DNA of 64,000 nt from Actinomycetales bacterium. GTDB taxonomy: Bacteria > Actinomycetota > Actinomycetes > Actinomycetales > Kineosporiaceae. The notes under the pieces are model-generated. The model did no database searches, was not told the origin of the DNA, and was given only the letters and a program-made list of their open reading frames with translations. Both the position numbers and the translations under genes were made by a program. Below, piece after piece: positions 6,980 to 39,490 of this stretch. The stretch's first letter is position 1. Each line of letters starts with the position of its first letter. The DNA is taken from positions 1-64,000 of the forward strand of contig JAAYAH010000224.1 in assembly GCA_012719445.1 (NCBI GenBank). The letters are read 5' to 3'.

Positions 6980-9811
6980 TCAGCTGGCGGTGCAGGTCAC
7001 GGTCGGGACGGCGTTGGAGCCGTTCCAGGACCCGAGGAACCCGAAGTTGGTGCTCCCACCGGCGGACAGCGTGCCGTTCCACGACATGTTCGTCGCCGTG
7101 ACGCTGGAACCACTGGTGGTCACATTCGCGCTCCAGTACTGGTTGAGGGTCTGGCCGTCGGGGAACGTCCAGGTCACCCGCCAGCCGCTGATCGCGGAGC
7201 TCCCGGCGGTGACCTTGACGTCACCCTGGAAGCCTCCCGGCCACTGCCCGGCCACCGTGTAGGTCGCCGAGCACGCCTTCCCACCCGAACTGGTCGTGGT
7301 CGTCGTGGTCGGCGGCCTGGTGGTCGTCGTCGTGGTGGTCGTGGTCGTCGTCGGCGGCCGCGTCGTGGTGGTCGTGGTCGTCGGCGGCCGCGTCGTCGTG
7401 GTCGTCGTGGTGGTGGTGGTGGTCGGCGGCCTGGTGGTGGTGGTCGTGGTCGTCGGCGGCCGCGTCGTGGTCGTCGTGGTCGTCGTGGTGGTGGTCGGCG
7501 GCCTGGTGGTGGTCGTGGTCACCGAGCCGGACGGGTCGGCGTACTGGACGCCGCGACCGTTGGTGCCGAGGTAGACCCGGCCGTAGATCCGCGGGTCACC
7601 GGTCAGCGCGTCGCCCATGTTGCCGAACTGGTGCTTGTCGTCGTTGATCCGGACCCAGTTCGCGGCCTTGTCGTCCGACCGGAACACCCCGGTCACCCCG
7701 TCGACCGTGCCGACGATGTAGATCGCCTGGTAGGACGCACCGGGTGCGGCCTTCCCGAAGCCCACGCTGCGGGCCCCGGTCACATTCGAGACCTTGGTGA
7801 ACGTGGCACCGGAGTCGGTGGAGCGGTACAGGCCGCCGGAGTCGCCGGCCAGCCAGATGTCGCCCTCGGCGCCGGGGACGGCGCGGAAGTTGACCGAGGT
7901 CGGCAGCCCGGAGGCCGTCTGGGTGAACGACTGCCCGCCGTTGGTGCTGACGTAGAAGGTGCCGTTGGAGACCGCGTAGAACTTCTGCGGGTTCACCCGG
8001 TCCGACTCGACCTTCGCGTTGGCCGGCACGCCCTGGGAGGCGCTCCAGGAGTTGCCGAAGCCCACCGAGTAGTGCACCTGGATGCCGGGGTCGCCCGGCG
8101 CCCAGACGAAGCGGCTGCCGTCGGCCGCGGCCGCGACCGTGCCGCCGTTGTTGACCCCGCCGGGCTCCTGGCCCTGGAACCAATTCGAACCGCCGTCGGT
8201 CGAGAACGCCACGTGGGCGTCGTTCGGCCGATCGGAGTCGGTGAAGTTGCCGGACCGCACCATGACGCTCGGGTTGGTCTCGGCGTAGTCGACGGACGTG
8301 GTCGAGGTGAAGACCGGGGTGGACATCATCTTCGACGGCACCTTGGTCAGGTCGGTGTGCACGAAGCCGCTGATGTCACCGAGACCGCTGACCAGCGAGG
8401 CGCCGGTCGGTGGGCTCATCAGGTCGAGGACCGCGGTCTCCTCCAGCCCCTGGGCCACCGGCTTGATGGTGATCTGGTCACCGGCGTCCCAGGCGGTGAG
8501 GTTCGTCGTCCCGTAGATCGTCGCCCCGGTGCCGTACATCATCCGGTTCGAGTTGAACGGGTCGATCTGCAGCTCCTCGGTCATCCAGCCGAGCTTCGGG
8601 GTGACCTCGGGCGGCTGCGGGTTGGCGCTGAAGGTAAGCCACGGGGCGCCGGAGATGTCCATCGTGTAGCGGAACGAGCGGCTGGGGTAGCTGGTCCAGT
8701 CCCAGGCCTTCGTCCAGGTGGCACCGGAGTCGGTGCTGCGGAAGATCTGGATGTCCGGCCACCAGGAGATCTGCGTCGTCACCATGATCGTGCTGGGGTT
8801 CTGCCGGTCGATGGTCAACCCGCTGTAGCCGAAGTAGGCGTCGCCGCTCGAGGAGGGGACCGGGCTGATCTGCGTCCACGTACCCGTGGCGATGCTGTAC
8901 TTCCACACGTCGCCCTTGGCCCCGTCGTACGGGCCGCCGGTGTCGGAGGTGGCGATGTAGAGCAGCTTGTTGGTCGGGTCGATGACGCCCTTGTGCGCCA
9001 TGTACCCGGTGGGCTGGCCGGCGACCCGCTCCCAGCTCGTCCCGCCGTTGGTGCTGCGGTAGACGGTGTTCTCCTTGTCGGCCACCCCGACATAGATGCC
9101 CTGGGTCGCGCTGCCCGCCGAGCCGGTGGACTTGTCGAAGGTCACCCAGACGACACCCTGGTTGTCGGCCGTGTAGTCGTTGGCCGGGTCCTGGACGTAG
9201 TTGCCGACGTTGGGGAAGTTGGTCACCTGCGACCAGGTGACCCCGGAGTCGGTGGACCGCCACAGGCCCTTACCGCTGGGCGCGCCGAAGTACAGGACGC
9301 TGTTCTTGTTGGGGTCGACCGCGAGGCGCTCACCCATGCCCCGGCCGGGCATGTTTCCGCCGAGCTTGAACGGCAGGGTCGTGATCTGCCAGGTGTTGCC
9401 GCGGTCCGAGGAGCGGATGATCGCGCCGTTGTTGGGGTCCCAGCTGTTGGTGTACATCCCGACCGCGGCGTACACCTTGTCGGCGTCCACGGGGTCGGGA
9501 GCGATGCTCACGCCGCCGAGGTAGCCCCACCTGTCCCAGCCCACCCAGTCGGTCAGCGGGATCCAGCGGGAGGTGGAGGGGTTCCACCGGTAGAGACCGC
9601 CCATGTCGGTGCGGGCGTAGATGAGGTCCTTCTCGGCGGGGCTGAACTCGATGCCGGGGACGAACCCGCCACCGACGATCTCGACGTTCTTCCATGTGTA
9701 TGCCTGGGAGGCGGCCGCGGTCGCCACGGGTGCGGTGGCGACCTGCGAGACCGCAGCCAGGGACGCGGCGACCAGGATGCCTGACGCCGCGCCGACAAGA
9801 CTCTTGCGCAT
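6980..9811 (-). CDS. Secreted GH74 xyloglucanase/endoglucanase with CBM2
   Basis: 943 residues from the ATG at 9809-9811, chosen over an upstream in-frame start because GAAGAGGG precedes it and a signal peptide follows at once (cleavage near TAAA-SQ). The catalytic GH74 double beta-propeller spans ~38-770. D69 (YARTDMGG) and D463 (EETAVLDLMSPP) match the two catalytic Asp residues of the family. BNR-type repeats (RSTDSGATW) recur. A long Thr/Pro/Arg linker follows and then a C-terminal CBM2 (CSATYTVAGQW to the final Cys), which binds cellulose. It hydrolyses xyloglucan or beta-1,4-glucan outside the cell. A LacI-type dyad lies ~155 bp upstream. Confidence 0.95.
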   Translation of the reverse strand: MRKSLVGAASGILVAASLAAVSQVATAPVATAAASQAYTWKNVEIVGGGFVPGIEFSPAEKDLIYARTDMGGLYRWNPSTSRWIPLTDWVGWDRWGYLGGVSIAPDPVDADKVYAAVGMYTNSWDPNNGAIIRSSDRGNTWQITTLPFKLGGNMPGRGMGERLAVDPNKNSVLYFGAPSGKGLWRSTDSGVTWSQVTNFPNVGNYVQDPANDYTADNQGVVWVTFDKSTGSAGSATQGIYVGVADKENTVYRSTNGGTSWERVAGQPTGYMAHKGVIDPTNKLLYIATSDTGGPYDGAKGDVWKYSIATGTWTQISPVPSSSGDAYFGYSGLTIDRQNPSTIMVTTQISWWPDIQIFRSTDSGATWTKAWDWTSYPSRSFRYTMDISGAPWLTFSANPQPPEVTPKLGWMTEELQIDPFNSNRMMYGTGATIYGTTNLTAWDAGDQITIKPVAQGLEETAVLDLMSPPTGASLVSGLGDISGFVHTDLTKVPSKMMSTPVFTSTTSVDYAETNPSVMVRSGNFTDSDRPNDAHVAFSTDGGSNWFQGQEPGGVNNGGTVAAAADGSRFVWAPGDPGIQVHYSVGFGNSWSASQGVPANAKVESDRVNPQKFYAVSNGTFYVSTNGGQSFTQTASGLPTSVNFRAVPGAEGDIWLAGDSGGLYRSTDSGATFTKVSNVTGARSVGFGKAAPGASYQAIYIVGTVDGVTGVFRSDDKAANWVRINDDKHQFGNMGDALTGDPRIYGRVYLGTNGRGVQYADPSGSVTTTTTRPPTTTTTTTTTTTRPPTTTTTTTRPPTTTTTTTTTTTRPPTTTTTTTRPPTTTTTTTTTTTRPPTTTTTTSSGGKACSATYTVAGQWPGGFQGDVKVTAGSSAISGWRVTWTFPDGQTLNQYWSANVTTSGSSVTATNMSWNGTLSAGGSTNFGFLGSWNGSNAVPTVTCTAS
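7291..7520 (-). repeat. Low-complexity Thr/Pro/Arg linker repeat in GH74
   Basis: A GGT/GTC/GTG-rich stretch coding on the minus strand for runs of Thr broken by R-P-P about six times (unit near TTTTTTRPP). It links the catalytic domain to CBM2. The blocks are near-identical at DNA level, so slippage or recombination could change linker length. Confidence 0.9.
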
Positions 9812-9964
9812 GGGTCCCTCTTCGACGACGGGGATGGTCAAGGGGCTCGACCCACCGGATCGGCGTCCAGTCGTCCGTCGCGCGGGGTCCAGGGAAGACA
9901 CGGACCGCACGATGTCGACACGACGCTCGGGCGCAGCTGACTGGCGGGGCGTACGACGGATTGT

Positions 9965-9976
9965 CGAAACGCTTCG
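9965..9976 (-). promoter_or_regulatory. LacI-type operator candidate upstream of GH74
   Basis: CGAAACGCTTCG is a near-perfect dyad with the central C-G step typical of LacI-family sites. It lies ~155 bp upstream of the GH74 start. A perfect TTGACA on the minus strand (10018-10023) is followed at 17 bp by GAAGGT (9995-10000), a weak -10. This would put the dyad about 10-25 bp past the start of transcription. Confidence 0.4.
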
Positions 9977-10091
9977 CATGCGGCTCCGGGGCAGACCTTC
10001 ACACGTTTTGATGGCGGTGTCAACGAGGTGATGTCGATGCCGACGAGTGGATTCACCCCATCACGGACGCCTCGGACGAACCGGTTCAGCA

Positions 10092-10924: not shown

Positions 10925-11165
10925 CCGGTCGCCCGCGACCGGGACCGGCACGCCGGCTCAGGCGCTCCCAGTGACCGGAACTACCGCATCGGTTCGCCGA
11001 GAATCTCCCGTGACAACGTCCGGCAGGGCACACTGCTGAGGTCGACCCGGAGAGGCCCGCCGCCATCACCACCTGTCGGTATGCGAGAGTGCGCGGCATC
11101 GACGACGGCGGCGCGCGGGGTGTGGATCTGCGAACCGCCTCTGGGCGGGACAAGGAGCGTTGGTC

Positions 11166-12185
11166 GTGGTCACGATCGCGGATGTGGCGAAGGCCGCCGG
11201 GGTGTCCAGCAGCACGGTGTCCTACGTGCTCAGCGGGAAGCGACCGATCTCGCCGACGACCCGGGAACGGGTGCTTCGCAGCATCCAGCGCCTCGGGTAC
11301 CACCCCCATGCCGGGGCACGCGCCCTGGCCAGCCACAAGACCAACGTGCTCGCCCTGGTCGCCCCGCTGCGCCACGACGTCGTCGTCCCCGTGATCATGC
11401 AGTTCGCCACGGCCGTCGTCACCGCGGCCCGGCGCCACGACCACGACGTCCTGCTGCTCACCCAGGACGAGGGGCCCGACGGCATCGCCCGGGTGACCAG
11501 CAGCGCCATGGTCGACGCGCTCATCGTCATGGACATCGAGAGCGACGACCCCCGGGTCCCGCTGCTCGCCGAGCGGCGCCAGCCCGCCGTCCTCATGGGC
11601 CTGCCCGCCGACCCGATGGGGCTGAGCTGTGTCGACCTGGACTTCACCGCGGTCGGCAGGCTCGCCGTCGAGCACCTCGTCGGGCACGGTCACCGCGCGA
11701 TCGCCCTCATCGGGCAGCCGTCCGCGGCCTACGCCCGCGGCACCAGCTACGCGCCCCGGCTGCTCGACGGCTTCACCGCCGGCCTGCGCGGGAGCGGGAA
11801 CGGGGTGCACGGGATCGCCGAGCCGTGCGAACAGACCTACGCCGGAGTCACCGAGTGCCTCGACCGGGTCCTGGCGCAGATGCCGGACGTCACCGGGTTC
11901 GTCGTGCACAACGAGCCGGCGCTCGGGCCGCTCCTGGACCAGTTGCGGGAGCGCGGGCGGCTGGTCCCCACGGATGCGTCCGTCGTCGCGATCTGCCCCA
12001 CCAGCGACGCGCTGAGCCAGCCGGTCCGGCTCACCTCCATCGACATCCCGGCCTCCGAGGTGGGCACGGTCGCCGTCGAGATGGTGATGAACCAGCTCCA
12101 GCACGGCGGTGGGCCCGAGACCCGGCTGCTGGCCCCGCACCTCACCGAGCGGAACAGCTGCGCGCCGCCCCCCTCGACCACCTGA
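11166..12185 (+). CDS. LacI-family transcriptional regulator
   Basis: 339 residues from the GTG at 11166, preferred over the TTG at 11160 because AGGAG (11153-11157) is then 8 bp away. HTH at residues 4-24 (IADVAKAAGVSSSTVSYVLS) with the hinge helix around GARALAS, then a periplasmic-binding-like sensor domain to the end. It is a cytoplasmic repressor or activator that responds to a small sugar. It sits between GH74 and GH12 cellulase genes that each carry a LacI-type dyad upstream, so control of cellulose or xyloglucan use (a CebR/CelR-like role) is likely but inferred. A right half-site GCGCTCCCA at 10972-10980 may allow self-control. Confidence 0.9.
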   Translation: MVTIADVAKAAGVSSSTVSYVLSGKRPISPTTRERVLRSIQRLGYHPHAGARALASHKTNVLALVAPLRHDVVVPVIMQFATAVVTAARRHDHDVLLLTQDEGPDGIARVTSSAMVDALIVMDIESDDPRVPLLAERRQPAVLMGLPADPMGLSCVDLDFTAVGRLAVEHLVGHGHRAIALIGQPSAAYARGTSYAPRLLDGFTAGLRGSGNGVHGIAEPCEQTYAGVTECLDRVLAQMPDVTGFVVHNEPALGPLLDQLRERGRLVPTDASVVAICPTSDALSQPVRLTSIDIPASEVGTVAVEMVMNQLQHGGGPETRLLAPHLTERNSCAPPPSTT

Positions 12186-12225: not shown

Positions 12226-14340
12226 TCACCCGGCCCCGGGATCGGTCCCGTCGGAGGGCTCCACGGGATCCGGCGGGCTCGCGGAGCCCTGGACCAGGTC
12301 GAAGTACCGGTCGAACTCGGCCTCGGTCCGCAGTCGGCCGAGCTTGCCGAACTCGCGGTCCATGGCCAGCACCACGTGCTCCATGCTGATCGCGCCGGTC
12401 ACCTCACCGGTGCCGCCGGTCCTCTCCCTGTCCTCTGCTCCCCTGTCCCCTGTCCCCTGCTCCCCCGCCCGGCCGTCCGCTGCTCGCCCGGCCCCTGCGG
12501 CGAGGAACGCCGCGGTGAGGGCGACGTTGCGGATCACCCCTCCGGTCACCTTGAACTGCCGGGCCAGGAAGTCCAGGTCGATCCCGTCCCGTGGCGCCGC
12601 GGGAGGGAAGCTGCGCTCCCAGATCGCCCGGCGCTGCTGCTCGTCCGGGGACACGAAGTCGAGGGCGACGCTGATCCGCCGCAGGAAGGCCTGGTCGATG
12701 TTGCGCTGGAGGTTGGTGGCCATCACCACGAGGCCGTCGTAGCTCTCCAGCCGCTGCAGCAGGTAGGCCACCTCGATGTTGGCGTACCGGTCGTGCGCGT
12801 CGCTGACCTCCGAGCGCTTGCCGAAGATCGCGTCGGCCTCGTCGAAGAAGAGCACCATGTCCCCCGCGGCGGCCGCGGAGAAGATGCGCTCGAGGTTCTT
12901 CTCCGTCTCCCCGATGTACTTGCTCACCACCGCCGACAGGTCGACCTTGTACAGGTCGAGGCCGAGGGCGTTGGCGACGACCTCGGCCGCGAGGGTCTTG
13001 CCGGTGCCGGACGGCCCGGCGAACAGCGCGACCACCCCGGTGGACGGCACCGTCGGATAGCCCCACTCGCCGTACACCCGGCCGCGGAGGCGGTGCCGGT
13101 CGGCGAGCTCGTGGAGCTGACGCTTCTGGTCCTCGGGAAGGACGAGGTCCGCCCAGTCCCGGCGCGGCCGCACCCGCAGCGCGACCCCCTCCAGCAGCCC
13201 TCCGGCGAGGCGGCGGATCCCCTCCGCGACCCGGGCGCCGTCACCGTCGCTGGCCGCGGTCACCAGCCGCAACTGCTCCCTGGTCATCCGGATGCCCTGC
13301 GGCGGGTCGGCGCCGAAGGCGGACGACCAGTCGGCGTCCGTCGCGATGCCGTCGGTGACCTGGAGCTCCCGGTGCGGCACCCGGGGCAGGCTCTCCAGGG
13401 GGAGCTCCCGTGGCGAGCTCAGTGCCCAGCACAGGTGCCCTGCCCGCCGGACCCGGTCGCGGAGGACGTCGTCCGGCGACCCGGTGAGTTCAAGCACGAC
13501 ACCGGCCCCGGTGACCCCCGCCTCGCGGACCAGCGCGTCCCACCCGGCGGCGTCGAACGGCGGGGAGGCCACCAGCAGGTGTCGGTCCCCGAGCACGCCC
13601 GAGACCACCCACAGCCTGCTCTCCCGGTCGGCCCCGTTGACCAGGAGCAGCGGTCCCGGCGGCCGGTCGGCGGCGAGTCCTGGCCGCCACCAGGTGCCGA
13701 CCGGGAGCGCGGGGTCGGGGGAGTCGTCGCCGACCAGGGCCCAGACCACCCTGGTCGCCACCGAGCACATCCGCCGCGCCCACGGCCCGGTCGGCTCGAC
13801 GTCCACCAGCGCCGCCCGGCACAGCGGACCGGCCGGTGAGACCGCGAGCAGCGCGGTGTCGGCCAGCAGCCGGGGCAGGACCGCCAGCGTCAGCCGGGGC
13901 AGGTGGACGCTGTCCTGCAGGTAGGAGACCAGCCGCTGCCGCTGGGGATCCAGCTCGACCGCGACGAGCAGGGCGAGGACCTCGGCCGCGGTGGCGTCCA
14001 GCGCGCAGCGGCGGACGACGGTCCGGAACCGGTCGGCCCACCGATCGGGCCCGTCGTCGTCCGCTCCGAGCCAGGTCAGGAAGGCGTGCCGGGCGTCGGC
14101 CAGGGCGGGGGCGAATGCCTTACGAAGGGCCGACGCGTCCTCGGCGGGAGGGCTCTGGATGCCGGGCAGGCTCCGCAGAGCCCGTTCCACGTCGGCGTCC
14201 TCGACGTACATCCCGGCGAAGTCGCGCGGTGGGACCCCGGCCACGATCCGGCACAGCGCGGCCTCCCGCTGCAGCAGGACGTCGGCGAGGACCTCCCACG
14301 GAGCGGGTCCGCCGGGCGGGTCGTACCGGTCGCTCGTCAC
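12226..14340 (-). CDS. AAA+ ATPase of the contractile-injection (eCIS/phage-tail) type
   Basis: 704 residues, GTG start. The first ~420 residues are an alpha-helical, poorly conserved region. The AAA+ core is ~415-600: Walker A GPSGTGKT with K448, Walker B MVLFFDEADAIFGKR, sensor ATNLQRNIDQAFLRR. This arrangement is that of the large ATPase found in extracellular contractile injection and tailocin-like loci, where it is thought to act in assembly. No sheath, tube, spike or baseplate gene is present in this window. It begins 10 bp after a LuxR-type response regulator, so the two form an operon. A stand-alone VAT/CDC48-like remodelling ATPase is the alternative. Confidence 0.75.
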   Translation of the reverse strand: MTSDRYDPPGGPAPWEVLADVLLQREAALCRIVAGVPPRDFAGMYVEDADVERALRSLPGIQSPPAEDASALRKAFAPALADARHAFLTWLGADDDGPDRWADRFRTVVRRCALDATAAEVLALLVAVELDPQRQRLVSYLQDSVHLPRLTLAVLPRLLADTALLAVSPAGPLCRAALVDVEPTGPWARRMCSVATRVVWALVGDDSPDPALPVGTWWRPGLAADRPPGPLLLVNGADRESRLWVVSGVLGDRHLLVASPPFDAAGWDALVREAGVTGAGVVLELTGSPDDVLRDRVRRAGHLCWALSSPRELPLESLPRVPHRELQVTDGIATDADWSSAFGADPPQGIRMTREQLRLVTAASDGDGARVAEGIRRLAGGLLEGVALRVRPRRDWADLVLPEDQKRQLHELADRHRLRGRVYGEWGYPTVPSTGVVALFAGPSGTGKTLAAEVVANALGLDLYKVDLSAVVSKYIGETEKNLERIFSAAAAGDMVLFFDEADAIFGKRSEVSDAHDRYANIEVAYLLQRLESYDGLVVMATNLQRNIDQAFLRRISVALDFVSPDEQQRRAIWERSFPPAAPRDGIDLDFLARQFKVTGGVIRNVALTAAFLAAGAGRAADGRAGEQGTGDRGAEDRERTGGTGEVTGAISMEHVVLAMDREFGKLGRLRTEAEFDRYFDLVQGSASPPDPVEPSDGTDPGAG

Positions 14341-14350
14341 CGTCGGCCGC

Positions 14351-14974
14351 TCAGATGACCCCGGCCCTGGTGGCCATGCCGACGGCCTGGGCGCGGGTCT
14401 TGCAGTTGAGCTTCGTCAGCACGTCGTGGACGACGTTCTTCACGGTCCGCTCCGAGTACCGCAGGTCGAGGGCGATCCGCCGGGTGTCGTGCCCCTCGGC
14501 GAGGAGCCGGAGGACGTCCCGCTCCCGCTCGGTGAGCGCGCCCGGCGCGGTGGCGGAGCTGCGGGAGGCGTGCTCCAGGAGTCTGGGCAGGACACCGGGC
14601 GGCAGGGTGGTGCGGCCCTGGGAGACCGCGCGGGCCACCATGACGAGGAGCTCGGGGGTGAGCTCCTCGTGGAACAGGATGGCGCCGACCCCGGCCCTGG
14701 CGATCTCGTGGAGGTGGGCGTCCCTCGGCTCCCGCACGGTCGCCACCAGGCCGATCTCGGTGCCGGCGACCAGGCGCAACACCGTGGCCAGTCCCGGCCC
14801 GTCGGCGTCGAAGACCAGCAGGCCGGCCCGTTCGAGGTCGGGCACGGGCTTCAGCCCGTCGCTCTCCCCCACGACGGTGAACCCCGCCGCGGCGAGGGTG
14901 ACGGCCATTCCCCGCCGGATCACGGCGTGCGGATCGTCGATCCACACGTGGCGCGGACTCACTGTCACCGCCAT
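14351..14974 (-). CDS. LuxR-family response regulator
   Basis: 207 residues from the ATG at 14972-14974 (GGGGGCAG upstream); the longer in-frame start at 15091 adds a Pro-rich stretch with no homology. Receiver domain 8-120 with acidic pair D13/D14 and likely phospho-acceptor D56 (LLVFDADG). C-terminal LuxR HTH ~142-200 (LTERERDVLRLLAEGHDTRR, YSERTVKNVVHDVLTKLNC). There is no sensor kinase nearby, so it is an orphan. Coupling to the downstream AAA+ gene suggests co-expression and possibly control of that locus. Confidence 0.88.
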   Translation of the reverse strand: MAVTVSPRHVWIDDPHAVIRRGMAVTLAAAGFTVVGESDGLKPVPDLERAGLLVFDADGPGLATVLRLVAGTEIGLVATVREPRDAHLHEIARAGVGAILFHEELTPELLVMVARAVSQGRTTLPPGVLPRLLEHASRSSATAPGALTERERDVLRLLAEGHDTRRIALDLRYSERTVKNVVHDVLTKLNCKTRAQAVGMATRAGVI

Positions 14975-15235
14975 GCTCTGCCCCCGAAAGCGGAATGCCG
15001 CACCGTCAGAAGGAAGAGGCACCGCACCGAGCGCGCGGGGCCTTGTTGTGCATAATCCGAGGTGAGGCGGGACCAGCGCAAGCAGAACCACGAATCGTGT
15101 TCACACAGGTTCACTCGGTTCCACCGACCCGTCGGCACCGACTACCGGGATCCGCGTCCGGTGTTCCTTCGTCACCCCGGGTTCCCACCGACGTCTCGGT
15201 AATGGTTCTTCGCGGGGTCGGGGCTCCCGGCCGGA

Positions 15236-16051
15236 TCACGGGGTGAGCGCGGCGGAGAGGACCGCCCGCGCCGTGTCGGCGTCCCCGAACAGCTCGATCC
15301 CACCGCCGTCCAGGTCGCAGCGCTTCCACAACAGGAGCAGCAGGGCACCCGCGGACCCCCGCAGGGTGGCGTCGGTCTCGACGTCCCCGGCCGAGGCGGC
15401 ACCCGTCCCGTCGCCCGCGAGCACCCGGCGCCACGGCGTCCGCGGTGCCGTGTCCCCGCCGAGGGACGGGTCCCCACAGGGCAGCGGCCCGTCCCCGGGT
15501 GACCGGGGGCTCGTGATCTCGAGTGCCACCGACCCGGGGAGCGGCGGGATCCTCCCCAGCCGCACCTGGCGGGGGAAGAACAGGTCGACGACCTCGGCGA
15601 CACCGTCCCGGGCCAGTTCCTCGTCCACCGGCGCCCGGACACCCTGCGAGTCCTGGGCGTCCCACAGGTGAATCGCCGTCTCCAGGGCCTGGCGCCGGGC
15701 CCAGAACTCGGTGAGCTGCGGCCGGGGGCCGAAGGTCCAGCAGGGGGTCGTGGCCCCGAGCTCCCGCAGGGCGGCCAGCAGCTCGTCGGCCGCCTCCCGG
15801 TAGCGGGCGACCAACGGGCCCCGCTCCGACGACCCCCACGGCACCAGGTGGTCGGACACGCCCTCGACGGCGGCAGCCCGCGCCCAGCGGTGCACCTGGT
15901 CGAGGTGCCGGCCGAGATCCGCGAGGTTCCAGTCCGGGCAGGCCGCGATCCCGGCCTCCAGGTCACCGTCGCCGAGCAGCGAGACGAATCCCTCCATCGC
16001 GGCCTCCAGGTGCCGCAGCCGGTCGGAGTGGGGCGGGCCGTCGGGTTCCAC
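15236..16051 (-). CDS. Mycothiol-dependent maleylpyruvate isomerase-family (DinB-like) protein
   Basis: 271 residues, GTG start. The N-terminal DinB-like four-helix metal-binding domain (residues 1-150) has CPDWNLADLGRHLDQVHRWA and RRQALETAIHLWDAQ, supplying the usual His-x(n)-E/H metal ligands. A C-terminal sterol-carrier-like MDMPI domain follows (VETDATLRGSAGALLLLLW). Members of this family are mycothiol-linked transferases or isomerases in the cytoplasm. The specific substrate cannot be read from sequence. It stands alone between unrelated genes. Mycothiol use supports an actinobacterial host. Confidence 0.85.
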   Translation of the reverse strand: MEPDGPPHSDRLRHLEAAMEGFVSLLGDGDLEAGIAACPDWNLADLGRHLDQVHRWARAAAVEGVSDHLVPWGSSERGPLVARYREAADELLAALRELGATTPCWTFGPRPQLTEFWARRQALETAIHLWDAQDSQGVRAPVDEELARDGVAEVVDLFFPRQVRLGRIPPLPGSVALEITSPRSPGDGPLPCGDPSLGGDTAPRTPWRRVLAGDGTGAASAGDVETDATLRGSAGALLLLLWKRCDLDGGGIELFGDADTARAVLSAALTP

Positions 16052-16744: not shown

Positions 16745-16823
16745 CGGACCGGCCGGGAGGAGTCGACGACCTCTCCGGGCATCCGGATGCCGGTAGTCGC
16801 GTCGACTCCTCCCGGTGGGTCCG
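16745..16823. repeat. Large inverted repeat with a nested palindrome
   Basis: Outer arms 16745-16768 and 16800-16823 pair over 24 bp with 2 mismatches; the inner 14 bp (GGGAGGAGTCGACG and its complement) are perfect. The loop holds a second perfect palindrome, GGCATCCGGATGCC, at 16778-16791. As RNA this would fold as a stem bearing a second stem. It lies 52 bp past the small ORF stop and may end that transcript. Confidence 0.8.
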
Positions 16824-16904
16824 CCATCCGGACGATCCGGGCGGTGGCGCGAGGGTCGGGCCGGAGCGACCGGTCAGGTGGCGGCCGGAACGACCGGCGA
16901 GGGC

Positions 16905-16985
16905 CAGGCGGGTGGCCGAGCGCGTGGCGGCCGGGGCGGCCGAGCACGTGGCGGCCGGGGCGGCCGAGCGGGTGGCATCCCGGGG
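16905..16985 (+). repeat. GC-rich tandem repeat upstream of the HelD-like gene
   Basis: About three imperfect copies of a 24-27-bp unit containing GTGGCGGCCGGGGCGGCCGA. The forward frame is open here and reads R-G-G-R-G-G, but this looks like low-complexity leader and not part of the helicase. Confidence 0.6.
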
Positions 16986-17117
16986 CGGGGACGACGCCGA
17001 GCGGATGACCCGCCCGCAACCCCCTCGCCCATCGGCCCCAGGACGCCCATACTTGTAGGTCGCGTCTGCGGTGGGGCCGCCCGCCGCATTCACCGGCCAA
17101 CCACGGAAGGGCTCGCC

Positions 17118-19514
17118 CTGAGCACCACAGACCAGCGTTCCGAGATCGGCTGCGAGCAGACCTACCTCGACCAGCTGTACCGGCACGTCGACACCCTCCG
17201 CGAACGCGCCGAACGTGACCTCGATCGCGTCCGGCGCGCCCCCATCGTCCCCACGCCGGCGGGCAGGGCCGAGCGGGACGCCTTCGACGCCTGGCACTCC
17301 GACCGGCTGCGCCAACTGCGGGCCGTGGAGGAGCGGCTCTGCTTCGGCCGGCTCGACCTCACCGGCGGCGAGCACCGGTACGTCGGCCGCATCGGTCTGT
17401 CCGACGACGACCGTGCCCAGCTGCTCATCGACTGGCGGGCCCCTGCGGCGGCGGACTTCTACCAGGCGACGGCGGCGGCACCCAACGGGGTCATCCGGCG
17501 GCGGCACATCGCCACCCGGGGCAGGACGGTGACCGGGCTGGACGACGAGGTCCTCGACGCCGAGGCCGTCGCCGAGGCCGCTGCGAACGGGAACTCCGCG
17601 CTCACCACCATCACCGGCGAGGGCGCGCTGATGACGGCCATCACCGCGCACCGCACCGGCCGGATGCGGGACATCGTGGCCACCCTGCAGTCCGAGCAGG
17701 ACCGGGTGGTGCGGGCACCGCTGGCCGGGGTGCTCGTGGTCCAGGGCGGGCCGGGCACCGGCAAGACCGCCGTCGCGCTGCACCGGGCCGCCTACCTGCT
17801 CTACACGCACCGGGACCGGATCGCGCGCAGCGGGGTGCTGGTGGTCGGACCGTCCCCGGTGTTCCTCCGCTACATCGAGCAGGTGCTGCCCAGCCTCGGT
17901 GAGACCGGCGTCGTGCTCACCACGCTCGCCGAGCTCTACCCGGGCGTCGAGGCGACGGCCCTGGACCCACCCGAGGTCGCGGTGGTCAAGGGCGACCTCC
18001 GGATGGCCACGGTGATCCGGGCGGCGGTGCGCGACCGGCAGCGACGGATCGACGTCCCGATCCCGCTCCGGCTGGACGGCGACCTCATCGAGCTGCAGCC
18101 GCGCGTCGTCGCCACCGCCAGGGCGAGGGCCCGTTCCACGGGGAAGCCGCACAACGGCGGCCGGGTCACCTTCGTCCTGCACCTGCTCGACGACCTGGCC
18201 GACCAGTTGGCCGCAGCCAGGGCGATCCGGGCGGACGACCTCGACGCCCGCGCCGACCTGCTCGCCGAGCTGCGGGCCAGCATCGACGTCCGGCGGGAGA
18301 TCAACCTCCGCTGGATGCCGCTGACCCCGGAGAAGCTGGTGCAGGACCTCTTCGCCTCCCCGGCCCGGCTGGACGCCGCCGCCCGCGGCATCCTCACCGA
18401 GCGGGAGCGGGAGCTGCTGTTCCGGGACCGGGGTTCGCCGTGGACGGCGGCCGACGTCCCCCTGCTCGACGAGGCCGCCGAGCTCGTCGGGGAGGACACC
18501 CAGGCCACGGCGGCGCAGGCGGCGCGGCTGGCGAGGGAGCGGGCGGAGGCCCTGGACTACGCCCGTGGCGTGCTGCGGATGTCCGGGGACCTCGCGGAGA
18601 TGGTGTCCGCGGAAATGCTGGCCGATCGGTTCGCCTCCGGGGGCCCGGACCTCACCCTCGCCGAGCGGGCCCAGGCCGACCGGGCCTGGACCTACGGGCA
18701 CGCCGTCGTCGACGAGGCCCAGGAACTGTCGGGGATGCAGTGGCGGATGGTGCTCCGCCGGGTGCCCTCGCGGTCGATGACCGTGGTCGGGGACGTCGCC
18801 CAGACCGGGTCGGCCGCCGGCACCACCGACTGGACCGAGGTGCTCGACCAGCACGCGGCGGACCGGTGGCGGGTGGCCGAGCTGACGGTGAACTACCGGA
18901 CGCCGGAGCGGATCATGAATCCGGCGGTGGCGATGCTGCGCGCGGCGGGGATCGAGGTGACCCCGCCGACATCGGCCCGGGAAGGCGACTGGGCACCGGT
19001 CGCCGAACGGGTCCGCACCCGGGATCCGGCAGCCGTCGCCGCGGCGGTCGTCGCCGCCCTGCGGGCCGACGACGCGGTGCTCGGGGGCGGCCGGTTCGCC
19101 GTGGTGGTCCCCCGCGCGAGCAGGGCCGATCTCGCCGGGCAGCTCGCCGCCGCGCTGGCCACCGCACCTCCTGCCGCCACGCTGGCCACCGCCCCTTCCA
19201 CCGACGGGCGACGGCCGCAGGCGGAGCCGACGGGCACGGGCACCGGTGGTGGCACCGACGCCGACACCGGCAGCGCAGGCGATCCGGCCGGTCCCGGGTC
19301 CGACCTCGCCGAACGGGTCTCGGTGCACACCGTCGACGACGTCAAGGGGTTGGAGTTCGACGGGGTGGTCGTGGTGGACCCGGTCGCGGTCGTCGCCGAG
19401 TCACCCCGGGGGGTCAACGACCTCTACGTCGCGCTGACCCGTCCCACCCAGCGGCTCACCGTGCTCCACCACGGCACCCTCCCGCCCGGTCTGGAGTCCC
19501 TCGCCGCCGATTGA
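17118..19514 (+). CDS. HelD-like superfamily 1 helicase/ATPase (RNA polymerase-associated)
   Basis: About 798 residues if translation starts at CTG 17118, which has GGAAGG 7 bp upstream and begins exactly where family homology begins (STTDQRSEIGCEQTYLDQLY). A GTG at 16815 would add ~100 low-complexity residues. Coiled-coil N-terminus (1-110), Walker A VQGGPGTGKTAVALH, motif II VVDEAQELSGMQW, motif III GDVAQTGS, and C-terminal KGLEFDGVVVVDP and YVALTRPTQRL. HelD/HelR proteins release stalled or rifamycin-bound RNA polymerase in Actinobacteria and Firmicutes. The region ~690-735 is a low-complexity Gly/Thr/Ala insert. A UvrD-type DNA helicase is less likely given the N-terminal coiled coil. Confidence 0.85.
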   Translation: MSTTDQRSEIGCEQTYLDQLYRHVDTLRERAERDLDRVRRAPIVPTPAGRAERDAFDAWHSDRLRQLRAVEERLCFGRLDLTGGEHRYVGRIGLSDDDRAQLLIDWRAPAAADFYQATAAAPNGVIRRRHIATRGRTVTGLDDEVLDAEAVAEAAANGNSALTTITGEGALMTAITAHRTGRMRDIVATLQSEQDRVVRAPLAGVLVVQGGPGTGKTAVALHRAAYLLYTHRDRIARSGVLVVGPSPVFLRYIEQVLPSLGETGVVLTTLAELYPGVEATALDPPEVAVVKGDLRMATVIRAAVRDRQRRIDVPIPLRLDGDLIELQPRVVATARARARSTGKPHNGGRVTFVLHLLDDLADQLAAARAIRADDLDARADLLAELRASIDVRREINLRWMPLTPEKLVQDLFASPARLDAAARGILTERERELLFRDRGSPWTAADVPLLDEAAELVGEDTQATAAQAARLARERAEALDYARGVLRMSGDLAEMVSAEMLADRFASGGPDLTLAERAQADRAWTYGHAVVDEAQELSGMQWRMVLRRVPSRSMTVVGDVAQTGSAAGTTDWTEVLDQHAADRWRVAELTVNYRTPERIMNPAVAMLRAAGIEVTPPTSAREGDWAPVAERVRTRDPAAVAAAVVAALRADDAVLGGGRFAVVVPRASRADLAGQLAAALATAPPAATLATAPSTDGRRPQAEPTGTGTGGGTDADTGSAGDPAGPGSDLAERVSVHTVDDVKGLEFDGVVVVDPVAVVAESPRGVNDLYVALTRPTQRLTVLHHGTLPPGLESLAAD

Positions 19515-31175: not shown

Positions 31176-33608
31176 TCAGCCCAGGACGACGAGGACGTCG
31201 ACGGGATCGCCGGCGACACCGACGAGACGATCTGCGGGGACGACGTTTCCATCGACGGCTTCTCCGTTGAGGGTGAGGGAGCGGACACCACGGTTGACGT
31301 GTCCCGGATTCTGCACCCTTATCCGAATCCGGCGACCGCGGAACCGTCGCTCGACCTCGAAACCGTCCCAGTCCGCCGGGATGCAGGGATCGATCCGGAG
31401 GCCGTCGGCGACCGGCGCGATCCCGAGCAGGTACTGGGTCACCGCGATGTAGGTCCAGCTCGCCGTCCCGGTCAACCACGAGTTCCGGGACTGCCCGAAC
31501 CGCGGCGAGTGCTTACCGTGGGTGAACTGGCAGTAGACGTAGGGCTCGGCCTGGTGCACGTCAGCCTGGTCGTTGTACCGGGCGGGCAGGTAGCTGCGGT
31601 AGTAGTCGTACGCTCTGTCACCGCGGCCGAGCATCGCCTCGGCGACGATCGCCCAGGAGTTGCTGTGGCAGAAGATGCCGCCGTTCTCCTTGTGGCTGGG
31701 CGGGTAGACGAGCAGCGACAGCATGACCCCCTCGACCGGCTTCGTGTGAGGAGGTTCACAGAGCACCAGCCCGTGCTCGGTGGCCAGGTGCTGGTGCACG
31801 GAGTCCATGCACTGCAGCGCCCGGTCCTCCTCCGCCGCGCCGCTGATGACCGCCCAGACGTTGGACTCGAGGTAGATCTTGCCCTCCGGCAGTGCCGCGC
31901 TGCCGAGCCGCACGCCGGTGGCGGAGATGCCGCGGATGAACCAGTCGCCGTCCCAGGCCACGTCGCCCGCGGCCTTACGCACCGCGGCCGCCTGCTCCTC
32001 GCACCAGGCCGCGTCGGCGTCCCTGCCCCGGATCCGGGCCAGCTCGGCCACCCGGCCGCAGGCCGCGTGGAAGAGGAAGGTGGAGAACAGGCTCTCGCCG
32101 CTGACCCCGAGGTTGACGCAGTCGTTCCAGTCCGCGGCCAGCCCCTGCATGAGGCCGTTGGTGCCCCGGTGCGCCATCGAGAACCGCAGCGCCTGCAGCA
32201 GGTGGTCGAGGACGCTCGCCCGGCCCGAGTCCGCGTAGGGCAGCTCGGTGTCGAGGTAGTCGAGGTCACCGGTCTCGAAGACGAAGTTGGCGACGGTCAG
32301 CGGCAGCCACAGCGTGTCGTCGCTGCGGTACTGCTCGACCGTCGGCGCCTGCTCCTGGCCCGGGGTGTGGGTCAACGGCTTGACCAGCGGCATCGCGCCG
32401 CCCTCCGCCGTCTGCCCGGTGAGGATGAGGTCGAGCCGCTCCCGGACCGCCTCCGGGATGCTGTGCGTCACCGCGAGCATGTCCTGGACGGTGTCCCGGT
32501 AGCCCAGGCCGTCCCGGTCACCGGCCTCGACCAGGCTCACCCCGCGGGACCAGTTGAAGGTCATGTGCGTCTGGTAGGCGTGCCAGACGTTGACCATGCT
32601 GTTCAGCTCGGGATCGGGGGTGTCGACCTGCATCGGGGTCAGGTGGTCGGCCCAGTCGGCGCGGATGGCCTCCAGCTCGGCGGCGACCCGCTCCGGCGTC
32701 GCGTAGGTCGCCAGCACCTCCCGGCCCGACGGCAGCCCGCGCCACTCGGCGCCGGGCTGCCCCATCCCTAGCACGAAGATCAGATCCCGGGACTCACCGG
32801 GAGCCAGCTCGACCGTCGCGTGCAGCGACGCGCAGGCGTTGTCGCCGACGGTCTCGCTGCCGGAGCAGCGGCCCCGCTCCACCGCGACCGGGGCCGCGGG
32901 GGTCCGGTACCGGCCGAGGAAGGCGTCCCGGTCGGTGTCGAAGGAGGTCACCTCGGCGCCCGCCAGCCCGAAGAACAGCGACTTGGCGCCGGACCGGGTC
33001 CGGTTGAACCGGTGGATCATGCCGTCCTCGTACCGGGCCTGGACGACGTACTGGCTGTACTGGAGGTTCTCCAGGTCCTGGCGGAAGTGCCACTCGTTGG
33101 CGAGCTCTGCGTAGCTGAACACCGAGAGCCGCCGGGGCGCGTCACCGGGGTTGGTGACCCGCAGCGCCCAGTACTCGAAGGCCTGCCCGCGCGGCACGAA
33201 GCAGGTCAGCGTGCTCTCGATCCCGGCGTAGCGCGCCTCGAACACCGAGTACCCGAGACCGTGCCGGACCGTGCCGACGTACCCGCCGTCCGCCCCGCCG
33301 TCGGCGCTCAGCGGTTTGCCGACCGGTTGCCACGACGCCGACCAGAACTCCCCGGCGGCGCACGCGTCGCCGCCCGCGTCGTCCCGCAGGTAGAGGTACC
33401 GGCCGGGCTGGTCGGCGGGTACCCCGTTGAACCGCATCCGCAAGATCCGCCCGGTGCCACCGGAGCGGTAGAAGCTGTAGCCGCCCGCGTTCTGGGTGAT
33501 GATCCCGCCGTACAGCCGGGATCCGAGGTAGTTGATCCAGGAGGCCGGGGTGTCCGGCCTGGTGATCACGTACTCGCGGGCGTCGTCGTCGAAGTGACCG
33601 TACTTCAT
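31176..33608 (-). CDS. GH94 disaccharide phosphorylase, chitobiose/cellobiose phosphorylase group
   Basis: 810 residues from ATG 33606-33608 (MKYGHFDDDAREYVIT). Full-length GH94: N-terminal beta-sandwich, linker helices, (alpha/alpha)6 barrel with the acid motif ADWNDCVN, and a C-terminal jelly roll (GVRSLTLNGEAVDGNVV). It cleaves a beta-linked disaccharide with phosphate to give an alpha-sugar 1-phosphate. Details such as FWSASWQPVGKPL, VERGRCSGSE and LESNVWAVISG are nearer to the N,N'-diacetylchitobiose phosphorylase subgroup than to cellobiose phosphorylase, so its substrate may differ from that of the second GH94 enzyme at 36796. Its 3' end carries the ribosome site of the epimerase gene. 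Confidence 0.9.
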   Translation of the reverse strand: MKYGHFDDDAREYVITRPDTPASWINYLGSRLYGGIITQNAGGYSFYRSGGTGRILRMRFNGVPADQPGRYLYLRDDAGGDACAAGEFWSASWQPVGKPLSADGGADGGYVGTVRHGLGYSVFEARYAGIESTLTCFVPRGQAFEYWALRVTNPGDAPRRLSVFSYAELANEWHFRQDLENLQYSQYVVQARYEDGMIHRFNRTRSGAKSLFFGLAGAEVTSFDTDRDAFLGRYRTPAAPVAVERGRCSGSETVGDNACASLHATVELAPGESRDLIFVLGMGQPGAEWRGLPSGREVLATYATPERVAAELEAIRADWADHLTPMQVDTPDPELNSMVNVWHAYQTHMTFNWSRGVSLVEAGDRDGLGYRDTVQDMLAVTHSIPEAVRERLDLILTGQTAEGGAMPLVKPLTHTPGQEQAPTVEQYRSDDTLWLPLTVANFVFETGDLDYLDTELPYADSGRASVLDHLLQALRFSMAHRGTNGLMQGLAADWNDCVNLGVSGESLFSTFLFHAACGRVAELARIRGRDADAAWCEEQAAAVRKAAGDVAWDGDWFIRGISATGVRLGSAALPEGKIYLESNVWAVISGAAEEDRALQCMDSVHQHLATEHGLVLCEPPHTKPVEGVMLSLLVYPPSHKENGGIFCHSNSWAIVAEAMLGRGDRAYDYYRSYLPARYNDQADVHQAEPYVYCQFTHGKHSPRFGQSRNSWLTGTASWTYIAVTQYLLGIAPVADGLRIDPCIPADWDGFEVERRFRGRRIRIRVQNPGHVNRGVRSLTLNGEAVDGNVVPADRLVGVAGDPVDVLVVLG

Positions 33609-33784
33609 GGAGGCCTTCGGGTCGGGCGGACGGTGGCGCGGACAGTGACCGGATCCGGCCCTCCGCGGACCCGCCCTGTCAAGGTCACGGCGAGCCGTGC
33701 ACAGGCTAGCCGGAGGACCCCCCGGGTGCCCAGATCGTTGGCTGTGATGCCTGCGGTGGCCAGGACCTTCCGACTCGGCTCTAC

Positions 33785-33822
33785 GACGGCGGACCCTGGT
33801 CATCCCGGAGTCCGCCGCCGTC
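33785..33822 (-). terminator. Hairpin after the ABC permease gene
   Basis: GACGGCGG (33785-33792) pairs with CCGCCGTC (33815-33822), ~30 bp past the permease stop on the minus strand. Confidence 0.55.
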
Positions 33823-33828
33823 ATGCCA

Positions 33829-33860
33829 GTCAGGTGGTCAGGTGGTCAGGTGGTCAGGTG
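33829..33860. repeat. Four perfect 8-bp tandem repeats at the permease stop codon
   Basis: GTCAGGTG repeated four times in a row. The permease stop TGA (minus strand, 33854-33856) lies in the copy nearest the gene. Confidence 0.9.
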
Positions 33861-35284
33861 GTGCGCAGGTTCACCACCGCCGCCGCCTCGCGCACCTGTG
33901 GCCGGAGCACCCAGGTAGCCAGGGCACCGAACCCGGTGACCGCCACCATCGCCACCACCCCGCCGAGGAGGGCTCCGAGCACCGCCGCGGCATTCCCGGC
34001 GAGGACGGCGAACAGCGCCACCCCGAGGACCGTCTCCGCCGTCACCGCGAGCAACGCCGGACCGGTCACCTGCAGGCGGAGCACCCGGGTGAGCTGTGCG
34101 GTGCCGACCCCGAACGCGGCGAGGGCCGCCATGGCCCGCCGGCCGTCGAGGATCTGTTCGGCGGTGCCGACGACGGCCGACATCCCGGCGACGATCATCG
34201 CGAGAACCGCCGCGACCCCGGCGAGCCCCGAACCGACGAGGTAGAACCCCACGTCGTCGAACAGGGAGAGTCGGACGTCGTCGGGTGCGGCGTCACAGCC
34301 GGAGCACCAGTAGTGCCCCGCCACCGTCGCCACGATCATCGCCCCCGAGATCATCAGGGCGAGACCGCAGACGACCACAACGGCCACGACATGCCCGGGG
34401 GTCACCGGGTCGAACCGCAGCCGGGCGGCGGCCAGCACCCGACGGACGTCGCCGGACCGTTCGAGTCGCCGGGCGGTCAGCAGCACCAGCGCCGGAGCGG
34501 CGAGGAACCCCGCGAGCACGAGTCCCGCGATGGCGGGACCCGTCGACACCGGCCTCAGGTTGTCCGGAGCCGTGTTCGACATCGAGGCCCACCCGAACAG
34601 CAGCGCCGCCCCGGCGGCGAGGGCCGCGAGCAGGTACCGCGTCCGTCGCACCGCCCGCGGTGACCGCGAACGGACGCGCTCGACCCCCGCGGGGACCTCG
34701 CGCACCGTGACCCGGCCGCCCCACCAGGCGACGAGGGCTACCACCGCGACGACCACCGGGCAGGCCAGCATGTCCCAGCGGTCGGGCCACGGCACCAGCC
34801 GGATGTCACGGCGGACGAACCGGCCGCCGGCGGACAACACCAGGTAGACCCCCACGGCGCCGACCCCCGCGGCCAGCCCCGCCCGCCCGGTCTCGGCCCC
34901 CGACAGCCGCCGGAGCTGCCGCAGTGACGCTCCCGCCGCCCGCAGGGCGACCAGCCGGCGCAGGCGCGCCGCACTGCCGACCCGCAGGGCCTGGACACCG
35001 AGGACGAGCAGCGGCACGCAGAGCAGCACCCCCGCGACAACCACCCCGTACCGGGTGCCGGGGGCCTCGACGTAGGGCGCGTAGCCGTCCCCGGAACCAG
35101 GCCAGGTCAGCAGCCCACTGTCGTCCGCCCAGGACCCGTCGGGGCCGCCGTAGCGGGCGATCCGCGCGGCGCCGAGGAGGAGGCCTCCCGCCCCGCCACC
35201 GGCGACGACGACGAGCCACCAGCGTCGCCACTCCGCCGAGGTGGACGGCCGGGCCAGCCGGAGCAGCGGGTCCCCCGCCCTCAC
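33854..35284 (-). CDS. FtsX-like ABC transporter permease
   Basis: 476 residues, GTG overlapping the ATPase stop (GTGA). About eight to ten hydrophobic segments, first near 22-40 and 80-98, last group at ~340-465, with two extracytoplasmic stretches. One (around ATVAGHYWCSGCDAAPDD) holds a Cys pair that could form a disulfide. The weak FtsX/MacB pattern near RAAGASLRQLRRL is visible. Third gene of the PadR-ATPase-permease operon, likely a drug or peptide efflux or sensing system. Substrate unknown. Confidence 0.85.
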   Translation of the reverse strand: MRAGDPLLRLARPSTSAEWRRWWLVVVAGGGAGGLLLGAARIARYGGPDGSWADDSGLLTWPGSGDGYAPYVEAPGTRYGVVVAGVLLCVPLLVLGVQALRVGSAARLRRLVALRAAGASLRQLRRLSGAETGRAGLAAGVGAVGVYLVLSAGGRFVRRDIRLVPWPDRWDMLACPVVVAVVALVAWWGGRVTVREVPAGVERVRSRSPRAVRRTRYLLAALAAGAALLFGWASMSNTAPDNLRPVSTGPAIAGLVLAGFLAAPALVLLTARRLERSGDVRRVLAAARLRFDPVTPGHVVAVVVVCGLALMISGAMIVATVAGHYWCSGCDAAPDDVRLSLFDDVGFYLVGSGLAGVAAVLAMIVAGMSAVVGTAEQILDGRRAMAALAAFGVGTAQLTRVLRLQVTGPALLAVTAETVLGVALFAVLAGNAAAVLGALLGGVVAMVAVTGFGALATWVLRPQVREAAAVVNLRTT

Positions 35285-36003
35285 CGGAGCACCGCCTCGT
35301 GCTGCACCACGCCGTCCAGCAGCCGGACCTCCCGGTCCGCCACCGCCGCGACCTTGTTGTCGTGGGTGACGACGACGAGCGCCGACCGGGTGGACCGGCA
35401 GGTCTCGACCATGAGCCGAAGCACCTGCTCCCCTCCGTCACTGTCCATGCTCCCGGTGGGCTCGTCGGCCAGGACGACGCTCGCCCCGGTGACCAGCGCC
35501 CTCGCCACCGCGACCCGCTGCGCCTGCCCGCCGGACAGGTCGGCCGGGTGGGCCGAGGCCACGTCGGCGACCCCGAGGCGGTCCAGCCACCCGGTCGCCG
35601 CGGCCCTGGCCGCCTCGCGCCCGGTCCCGTCGAGCAGCAACGGCAGGGCCACGTTGTCGACCACGGGCAGCTCCGGGACGAGCTGCCCGTGCTGGAGCAC
35701 CAGGCCGATCTCCCGCCGCCGCAGCGCACTCGCGGCGTCGTCGTCCAGGGCGATCATGTCCTGGCCGCACACGGTGACCGAGCCGCTGTCCGGTCGCAGC
35801 AGCCCCGCCGCGACGTGCAGCAACGTCGACTTGCCGCTGCCGCTCGGCCCGGTCACCGCCACCACCTCGGCCCTGCGGGCCGTCAACGACACCCCGCGCA
35901 GCGCGGGCGTACGCGGGTAGGCGAAGGTCACCGCCCGCAGGTCGAGGACCAGGTCCCCGTCCGTCCTCGGGCCGGGCGTCGGTGCGTTTGCCGGCTCGGT
36001 CAC
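35281..36003 (-). CDS. MacB/LolD-type ABC transporter ATP-binding protein
   Basis: 240 residues from GTG 36001-36003, which overlaps the PadR stop. Walker A GPSGSGKST, Q-loop VLQHGQLVPELPV, signature LSGGQAQRVAVARALV, Walker B VVLADEPTGSMD, switch THDNK. Pairs with the downstream FtsX-like permease. The long upstream open frame is PadR sequence in another frame. Confidence 0.92.
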   Translation of the reverse strand: MTEPANAPTPGPRTDGDLVLDLRAVTFAYPRTPALRGVSLTARRAEVVAVTGPSGSGKSTLLHVAAGLLRPDSGSVTVCGQDMIALDDDAASALRRREIGLVLQHGQLVPELPVVDNVALPLLLDGTGREAARAAATGWLDRLGVADVASAHPADLSGGQAQRVAVARALVTGASVVLADEPTGSMDSDGGEQVLRLMVETCRSTRSALVVVTHDNKVAAVADREVRLLDGVVQHEAVLR

Positions 36004-36626
36004 TGGTCCTCCTCGGGGGTCTTGGCGTGCAGGGCATCGGGTGTCCGGCCGGATCCCGGGAGGCCCGGGTTCTGTCGGGGGGATAGGTCCGGTCGGGGAG
36101 GTGGCCCGGCCTCCGGGACCGGATCCGGCCTGGCGAGCCGGTCGGCGGCGCGTTCCAGCCAGCGCAGGTCGGCGTCGAGATGCTCCAGCGCGTGGTCGCG
36201 GGACAGTGCCGCCAGCGGGTCGGTGGGCTGCTGGTCGCTGAGCTCCCGCATCCGGCGGAGGTAGGCGGTCCGCTGGGCCAGGAGCATGGGCAGCGGGTCC
36301 GCCGAGATGCGCAGCGCTGCGACCGTCTTGCGGACCAACTCCCCCGCCCCGGGGGACATCGGGGCGACCGGCTCGGCCAGCCAGCGCTCCACCCGTTCCC
36401 GTCCCCGTGGGGTGAGCGCGTAGACGGTGCGCTCCGGACCGCCGTCCGCCCTGACCTCGGCCACCTCGACGCAGCCGTCCTTGGTCAGCCGGCCGAGGGC
36501 CGAGTAGACCTGCCCGTAGGCCAGGGGATTCGCCAGCGGGAACCACTCGTCGTGGATCCGCTTGATCTCGTAGCCGTGCCGGGGTGCGGCCACGAGGGCC
36601 GCCAGCACGAGGTCGGTGGTTCCCAC
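36000..36626 (-). CDS. PadR-family transcriptional regulator
   Basis: 208 residues from GTG 36624-36626. Winged HTH in the first ~85 residues (LVLAALVAAPRHGYEIKRI, PLAYGQVYSALGRLTKDGCV, TVYALTPRGRERVERWL), then a C-terminal helical dimerisation region (LAQRTAYLRRMRELSDQQ, LEHLDADLRWLERAADRLA) and a Pro-rich tail. The start has no ribosome site but sits 6 bp after a -10 box, so it is likely leaderless. It should repress its own operon through the palindrome over that promoter and be released by the transporter's substrate. Confidence 0.9.
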   Translation of the reverse strand: MGTTDLVLAALVAAPRHGYEIKRIHDEWFPLANPLAYGQVYSALGRLTKDGCVEVAEVRADGGPERTVYALTPRGRERVERWLAEPVAPMSPGAGELVRKTVAALRISADPLPMLLAQRTAYLRRMRELSDQQPTDPLAALSRDHALEHLDADLRWLERAADRLARPDPVPEAGPPPRPDLSPRQNPGLPGSGRTPDALHAKTPEEDQ

Positions 36627-36632
36627 GGAGCT

Positions 36633-36662
36633 GTTATACACACTGTATATAGCCACTGTCCA
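36633..36662 (-). promoter_or_regulatory. Promoter and PadR operator of the ABC operon
   Basis: On the minus strand TGGACA (36657-36662), 18 bp, TATAAC (36633-36638), then 6 bp to the GTG start. The perfect dyad TATACA-CAC-TGTATA (36635-36649) lies across the -10 and spacer, where a bound dimer would block RNA polymerase. Confidence 0.75.
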
Positions 36663-36719
36663 TACACACCATGAACAGTTGGCCGATCGCCCTGGGCGCT
36701 CACCCCCGAGGCAAACAGA

Positions 36720-36772
36720 CATGATCTTGGTTGATCCGGACCGGATACCGACCCGGATCAACCAAGATCATG
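36720..36772. repeat. 20-bp perfect inverted repeat between GH94 and padR
   Basis: CATGATCTTGGTTGATCCGG (36720-36739) and its exact complement (36753-36772) around a 13-nt loop. It lies past the GH94 stop at 36796 on the minus strand only by being upstream in sequence, i.e. downstream of that gene, and can end its transcript. ATGATC/TTGATCC-rich repeats of this kind are common between genes of several actinobacterial families, so it may be a dispersed element. Confidence 0.75.
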
Positions 36773-36795
36773 GTGATGTCGAGCGAGGAGCCCGG

Positions 36796-39219: not shown

Positions 39220-39490
39220 GCCGGCCTTGCCTCTCACTGCACGGGCAGACCAGCGCCCTGCTCACCGTCCGCTGCACGCCGCGGACCGGAAGACCGTGGT
39301 CTGCGTGGTCACGCGCACCGACTCCAGGTGCGCCGATCTGTCTGTCGCGCGGCTGTGCCCCTCTCCACATGCCCACCGCGGTCGGTGCAGCACGGCGGCT
39401 CCCACGAGAGGACCGGCCGAACGGGCGTCAGACCGAGCACCCCGCCCGCCGGTGGGGAGTCCGAGCAGAACGCCCCGACAACCGCGGATA

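Follow-up and report, generated by a model that had tools for sequence, protein, structure and literature searches.

An eCIS-type AAA+ ATPase and a LuxR-type regulator encoded apart from the structural genes of a contractile injection system

Extracellular contractile injection system (eCIS) regions are reported to encode invariably an AAA+ ATPase and a Pvc16_N protein (PMC10020575). The ATPase Pvc15 loads cargo, and D2 is its sole active ATPase domain (PMC11495950); when the ATPase of Streptomyces coelicolor was deleted, particles formed and their function was lost (PMC10020575). Regulators also belong to this picture: a GerE domain adjoins 25.8% of eCIS loci, with a kinase in 9% of those (PMC8213781), and the LuxR-type protein SCO4263/SlpR is required for Streptomyces particles (PMC8505568). 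To find LuxR/GerE regulators next to eCIS genes is an established pattern rather than an odd coupling.

The two-gene unit and its surroundings

The stretch that we analysed (64,000 nucleotides; hereafter the window) starts at the first base of C200, a 94.6-kb contig in an actinomycete genome of 5.42 Mb and 283 contigs. The assembly scores as 99.3% complete and 1.85% contaminated, and the closest named relatives of the ATPase are found in Cellulomonas species. An earlier note on this DNA had described an ATPase and a LuxR-type regulator as a compact two-gene unit; the unit was confirmed at the same coordinates. Its features are these (residue numbers refer to the ATPase):

12226-14340, minus strand: eCIS-type AAA+ ATPase (Afp15/Pvc15/SCO4259-like), 704 aa, with an N domain, a D1 without a Walker A motif and an active-type D2 (Pfam AAA and WHD matches, tree clade, alignment)
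12481-13188, minus strand: D2 AAA module, residues about 385-620, with Walker A GPSGTGKT (442-449), Walker B FFDEAD (498-503), sensor-1 TN (542-543) and an Arg pair (554-555) (Pfam, alignment A1)
13708-14040, minus strand: winged-helix variant domain PF22977, residues 101-211, in the N domain (Pfam)
14351-14974, minus strand: LuxR/NarL-type regulator, 207 aa, with a partly degenerate receiver and a GerE DNA-binding domain (Pfam, receiver alignment)
14975-15235, minus strand: likely promoter region of the unit, containing an inverted repeat, ACCGA-N4-TCGGT, that is not significant alone

The regulator begins with an ATG at 14974, and its stop codon lies 10 bp from the GTG that starts the ATPase. 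Both are real genes, as judged from their long open frames and a codon-position GC pattern typical of the genome (GC1/2/3 of 0.78/0.51/0.94 and 0.76/0.50/0.91 for the two genes). Around the pair lie a LacI regulator in convergent orientation (11160-12185), a protein of the mycothiol isomerase type (MDMPI; 15236-16051) and, at 16815-19514, a UvrD-type helicase; no histidine kinase is found among these immediate neighbours. Profiles for sheath, hub, gp25, J and Pvc16 yielded no matches in the window or in the remainder of C200, just as the note had claimed for the absence of structural injection genes here. The contig is free of them for 12 kb to the left of the pair and 80 kb to the right, the leftward view being limited by the contig end at 12.2 kb. 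Thus, neither a kinase nor an eCIS locus stands next to the pair. The window ATPase does not lie inside an eCIS gene cluster, the genome's eCIS being on contig C127; this position weakens its placement in a standard cluster, not its homology.

Elsewhere in the window, positions 40-63 kb hold a large flagellar cluster and not an injection system. The cluster (FliW, flagellin, FliE, FliF, FliG, FliH, FliI and a sigma factor) occupies window positions 40175-64000 and continues to about contig position 80600 (L013), with export-apparatus-like genes downstream. The stretches 6980-9979 and 31176-39237 contain two genes of the GH94 phosphorylase type, together with a repeat protein that has Thr-Pro linkers and, at its C terminus, a cellulose-binding-module-like domain; their sequences suggest cellulose or glucan use.

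The ATPase and the eCIS of this genome

The ATPase matches the Pfam AAA profile at 2.5e-25 and PF22977 at 1.4e-7. All of the D2 motifs (Walker A, Walker B, sensor 1 and the Arg fingers) are invariant in alignment A1, and residues 205-385, the place of D1, hold no Walker A. Most of the eCIS-linked ATPases tested match PF22977: a second ATPase of this genome (on contig C139) and that of genome G004 do so strongly, Cellulomonas-type proteins score at or below the cut-off, and the G575 protein has no match. In the AAA lid region there is a low-complexity insert (residues about 618-650; window 12391-12489) that is missing from the four aligned relatives. The best NCBIfam match, the IteA anti-phage ATPase, was rejected (93 bits vs. 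a cut-off of 510), and an AlphaFold model of the ATPase made with 5 sequences was too poor for use (pLDDT 48).

The ATPase of Cellulomonas phragmiteti matches the window ATPase at 54% over 680 aa. In that species and in C. avistercoris, a sheath gene lies divergent to the ATPase relative, and hub, gp25, J, an eCIS-core protein and Pvc16 occur in the same stretch. Phylogenetic analysis placed the window ATPase in a five-row clade (support 98-100) with the proteins of these two species and that of G069, all three directly adjoining sheath and other eCIS genes, and with a detached copy from G377. By these comparisons, we identify the window ATPase as an eCIS ATPase of the Afp15/Pvc15/SCO4259 type, which upholds the note's assignment from its core layout.

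The genome holds a single eCIS structural cluster. It lies on C127 (16.9 kb) and comprises sheath, tube, an eCIS-core protein, a LysM tube protein, hub, PAAR, gp25, J and a Tail_P2_I-like protein; neither an ATPase nor Pvc16 is found on that contig. Genome-wide, there are one sheath, one Baseplate_J, one Pvc16_N and two eCIS-type ATPases. The sole Pvc16_N (the tail terminator) is on contig C85, directly behind a regulator that is 58% identical to the one in the window and is its only close paralogue. A divergent SLT/NlpC-type wall hydrolase stands beside that regulator-Pvc16 pair, and in two Cellulomonas-type loci a hydrolase of the same SLT type separates Pvc16 from a GerE regulator. The second ATPase (C139:7375-9582) belongs to a separate tree clade (support 97). 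Next to it are a toxin-like protein of 1500 aa, rich in glycine, and a helical-repeat-like protein, neither with a Pfam match; the ATPase and these neighbours (L012:1193-9582) are possibly a separate loading module. The C127 structural operon is headed by a lone 111-aa receiver-like protein with no output domain (L002:476-811; E 9e-4, below Pfam's cut-off). Upstream of that operon (about L002:226-252) is a perfect inverted repeat, TCACCGGT-N11-ACCGGTGA.

Taken across C127, C85 and C200/C139, the genome thus encodes sheath, tube, hub, gp25, J, Pvc16 and ATPase, that is, a complete eCIS. Contamination was rejected as the source of C127, C85 and C139: their tetranucleotide composition correlates with that of C200 at r = 0.87-0.90, much as segments of C200 correlate with one another (0.83-0.90). 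The ends examined of these four contigs share no 18-mers, so their adjacency is neither shown nor excluded, and with the genome in 283 contigs, C127 could adjoin C85 or C139.

Which ATPase serves the C127 cluster? The second one, on another contig, makes the assignment tentative. The C127 sheath groups (support 95-97) with the sheaths of G004, G005, G008, G009, G373, G575 and G451, and the ATPases tied to those sheaths fall into two clades of ten rows each (support 100 for both). One of these holds the G575 and G451 proteins along with the window ATPase; the other does not contain the C139 ATPase. Because the clade of the window ATPase, and not that of the C139 protein, includes ATPases linked to C127-type sheaths, sequence kinship makes the window ATPase the more likely partner of C127. 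The window ATPase itself groups with Cellulomonas-type relatives and the C127 sheath is in another clade; the eCIS parts are therefore a mosaic.

In three genomes of the same family (G004, G005 and G006), the order regulator, Pvc16, ATPase is found within the eCIS locus; the sheath follows after another 5-10 kb or so. We also surveyed 49 other eCIS-type ATPase loci, mostly from an order-level scan and with roughly 20 kb examined per locus: at least one structural eCIS gene was near 46 of them. The exceptions are G377:C28 (L073:4883-11055), G069:C4 (L095:8537-12125) and a third locus, truncated by a contig end. In the first two, the detached ATPase adjoins a DUF4157-type protein (called by profile for G377 and by eye for G069), and no eCIS structural gene occurs in a further 13-20 kb per side (about 50 kb around). 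Nor was one found nearby in three class-level relatives on short contigs. Given these counts and exceptions, detached eCIS ATPases are rare but recurrent.

The regulator

The DNA-binding domain of the regulator is clear: GerE is matched at 9.1e-15 (54.5 bits vs. a cut-off of 23.5). The receiver is another matter. Pfam Response_reg has no match in the window regulator, nor in any of the full-length eCIS-linked regulators tested. In alignment with ordinary NarL-type proteins, the window receiver keeps the acidic pair (DD) and the phospho-accepting Asp, and it has Val in place of the switch Thr and His in place of the Lys. The C85 paralogue has Glu at the phospho-Asp position and His at the Lys position; in the eCIS-linked regulators of other genomes, the phospho-Asp is lost (mostly to Val) and Arg occupies the Lys position. 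The protein is thus no canonical NarL-type response regulator, having neither the switch Thr/Ser with Lys nor an adjacent cognate histidine kinase. Given the non-canonical receivers and the missing Response_reg matches, the term "response regulator" describes ancestry only, and control by an ordinary kinase appears doubtful. The partly degenerate receiver suggests control by abundance, a ligand or dimerisation instead. The note's orphan response regulator under signal control must be amended here: no kinase is adjacent, but the receiver's partial degeneracy argues against a plain orphan response regulator. A conserved LuxR-type regulator with a degenerate receiver also occurs in genus g5 (L113-L118); its presence in a genome devoid of a sheath gene (G007) shows that this regulator family is not confined to eCIS loci.

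The regulator tree resolves just the window protein and its C85 paralogue, deeper placements carrying long-branch warnings; kinship of the window regulator to eCIS-linked regulators at that depth appears weak. In 396 order-level and 395 class-level genomes, no other regulator reached an E-value below 1e-28 to 1e-30. Since this exact regulator lacks close relatives there, the regulator-ATPase pair is private to this lineage as sampled.

Competing readings and comparison with known systems

We favour reading the pair as one half of a regulator-cis16-cis15 module that was split, in which the ATPase would be the remote loading ATPase for an eCIS whose parts are dispersed. The simplest history that we infer is that an ancestral unit of this kind was duplicated and then split. 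Our main reading, to which we assign a probability of roughly 0.68, is that the window ATPase belongs, as its Cis15/Afp15-type ATPase, to the one eCIS of this genome, although its gene lies apart from the structural operon. The note had offered a remote partner of a distant injection locus as one of its options, and the single structural cluster on an ATPase-free contig supports it. Against this reading count the absence of the pair from the other genomes searched and the weak deeper kinship of the regulator. The promoter regions of the modules also yielded no significant shared operator: the best matches equal or barely exceed shuffles. Further, C139 or C85 could abut C127, and the C139 ATPase could serve C127 instead.

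The last of these points has a fuller form, in which the eCIS on C127 relies on the C139 ATPase and the one in the window is kept as a specialised spare, for the loading of a particular cargo encoded elsewhere. The toxin-like and helical-repeat-like proteins beside the C139 ATPase fit such an arrangement, as do the detached ATPases next to DUF4157-type proteins in G069 and in G377, the latter in the clade of the window ATPase. The window ATPase has no adjacent cargo gene, however, and the clade evidence ties C127-type sheaths to its own kin rather than to that of the C139 protein; we regard this arrangement as possible but improbable. The pair might also be left over from an eCIS locus that was lost or has moved, and persist by chance; the mosaic of a Cellulomonas-type ATPase with a sheath of another clade, as well as the long lid-region insert, would suit that history. 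Yet both frames are intact with genome-typical codon bias, the gene pair is tight, and Walker A and B, sensor 1 and the Arg fingers are all preserved; the note's suggestion of a relic is on these grounds disfavoured, and we consider it quite unlikely. Its third suggestion, a protein-remodelling system unrelated to injection and under its own regulator, could appeal to a D2 that by sequence is generic AAA, with p97/Cdc48 as the closest solved structures, and to the sub-threshold IteA match. It is not needed to explain a protein whose full-length relatives are eCIS ATPases, nearly all of them linked to structural genes, and whose regulator has a paralogue linked to an eCIS part; we hold it to be highly improbable.

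If the window ATPase does serve the C127 eCIS, then by analogy with Pvc15 and SCO4259 it would act as a hexamer whose D2 hydrolyses ATP, such that cargo is held or unfolded and loaded into the assembled tube; particles made without it would form and not work. The LuxR regulator is probably co-transcribed with the ATPase and most likely drives its own two-gene unit. With its C85 paralogue, it would probably also activate the other eCIS modules, so that the scattered parts are made together. A bolder and distinctly tentative extension is that the eCIS is stably dispersed, its structural operon, its terminator and its ATPase each having a chromosomal site to itself. A non-canonical receiver-type protein would head every one of these sites (a full regulator at two, the lone 111-aa receiver at the structural operon). 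These proteins might form a phosphorylation-independent switch that times cargo loading apart from assembly.

Such a layout bears on how eCISs are found. Surveys of these systems find contiguous loci; here, the ATPase and the tail terminator, both reported as invariable, are off the structural contig. A locus-based survey would call the system incomplete and its ATPase unrelated, and detached ATPases are seen in at least two other genomes. The layout separates loading from assembly genetically, and the decayed receivers of eCIS-linked LuxR regulators make the signal that activates an eCIS testable outside the kinase model.

How does the pair compare with its described counterparts? With the eCIS ATPases Afp15/Pvc15 and SCO4259 of S. 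coelicolor, the window ATPase shares the N-D1-D2 order and complete motifs in D2 only, and with other eCIS ATPases it shares the winged-helix variant domain; its relatives over almost the whole length adjoin eCIS sheath genes. It differs from Afp15/Pvc15 in being encoded apart from the eCIS structural operon. The regulator resembles the GerE/LuxR eCIS regulators (the shell domain of PMC8213781; SCO4263/SlpR) as a LuxR DNA-binding protein of a kind found next to eCIS genes, mostly without a kinase, the likeness to SCO4263 being one of LuxR type and eCIS context rather than of homology comparison. It differs in that two paralogues in one genome each head a separate module and in that its receiver is less degenerate than those of its eCIS-linked relatives. 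The units of G004, G005 and G006 have the same gene kinds in the same direction with the regulator first, but there they are contiguous inside the eCIS locus, whereas here Pvc16 is on another contig with the other paralogue. The system is thus of a known kind in a layout that the 46 linked loci of 49 mark as unusual: a scattered version of a known machine, not a new machine.
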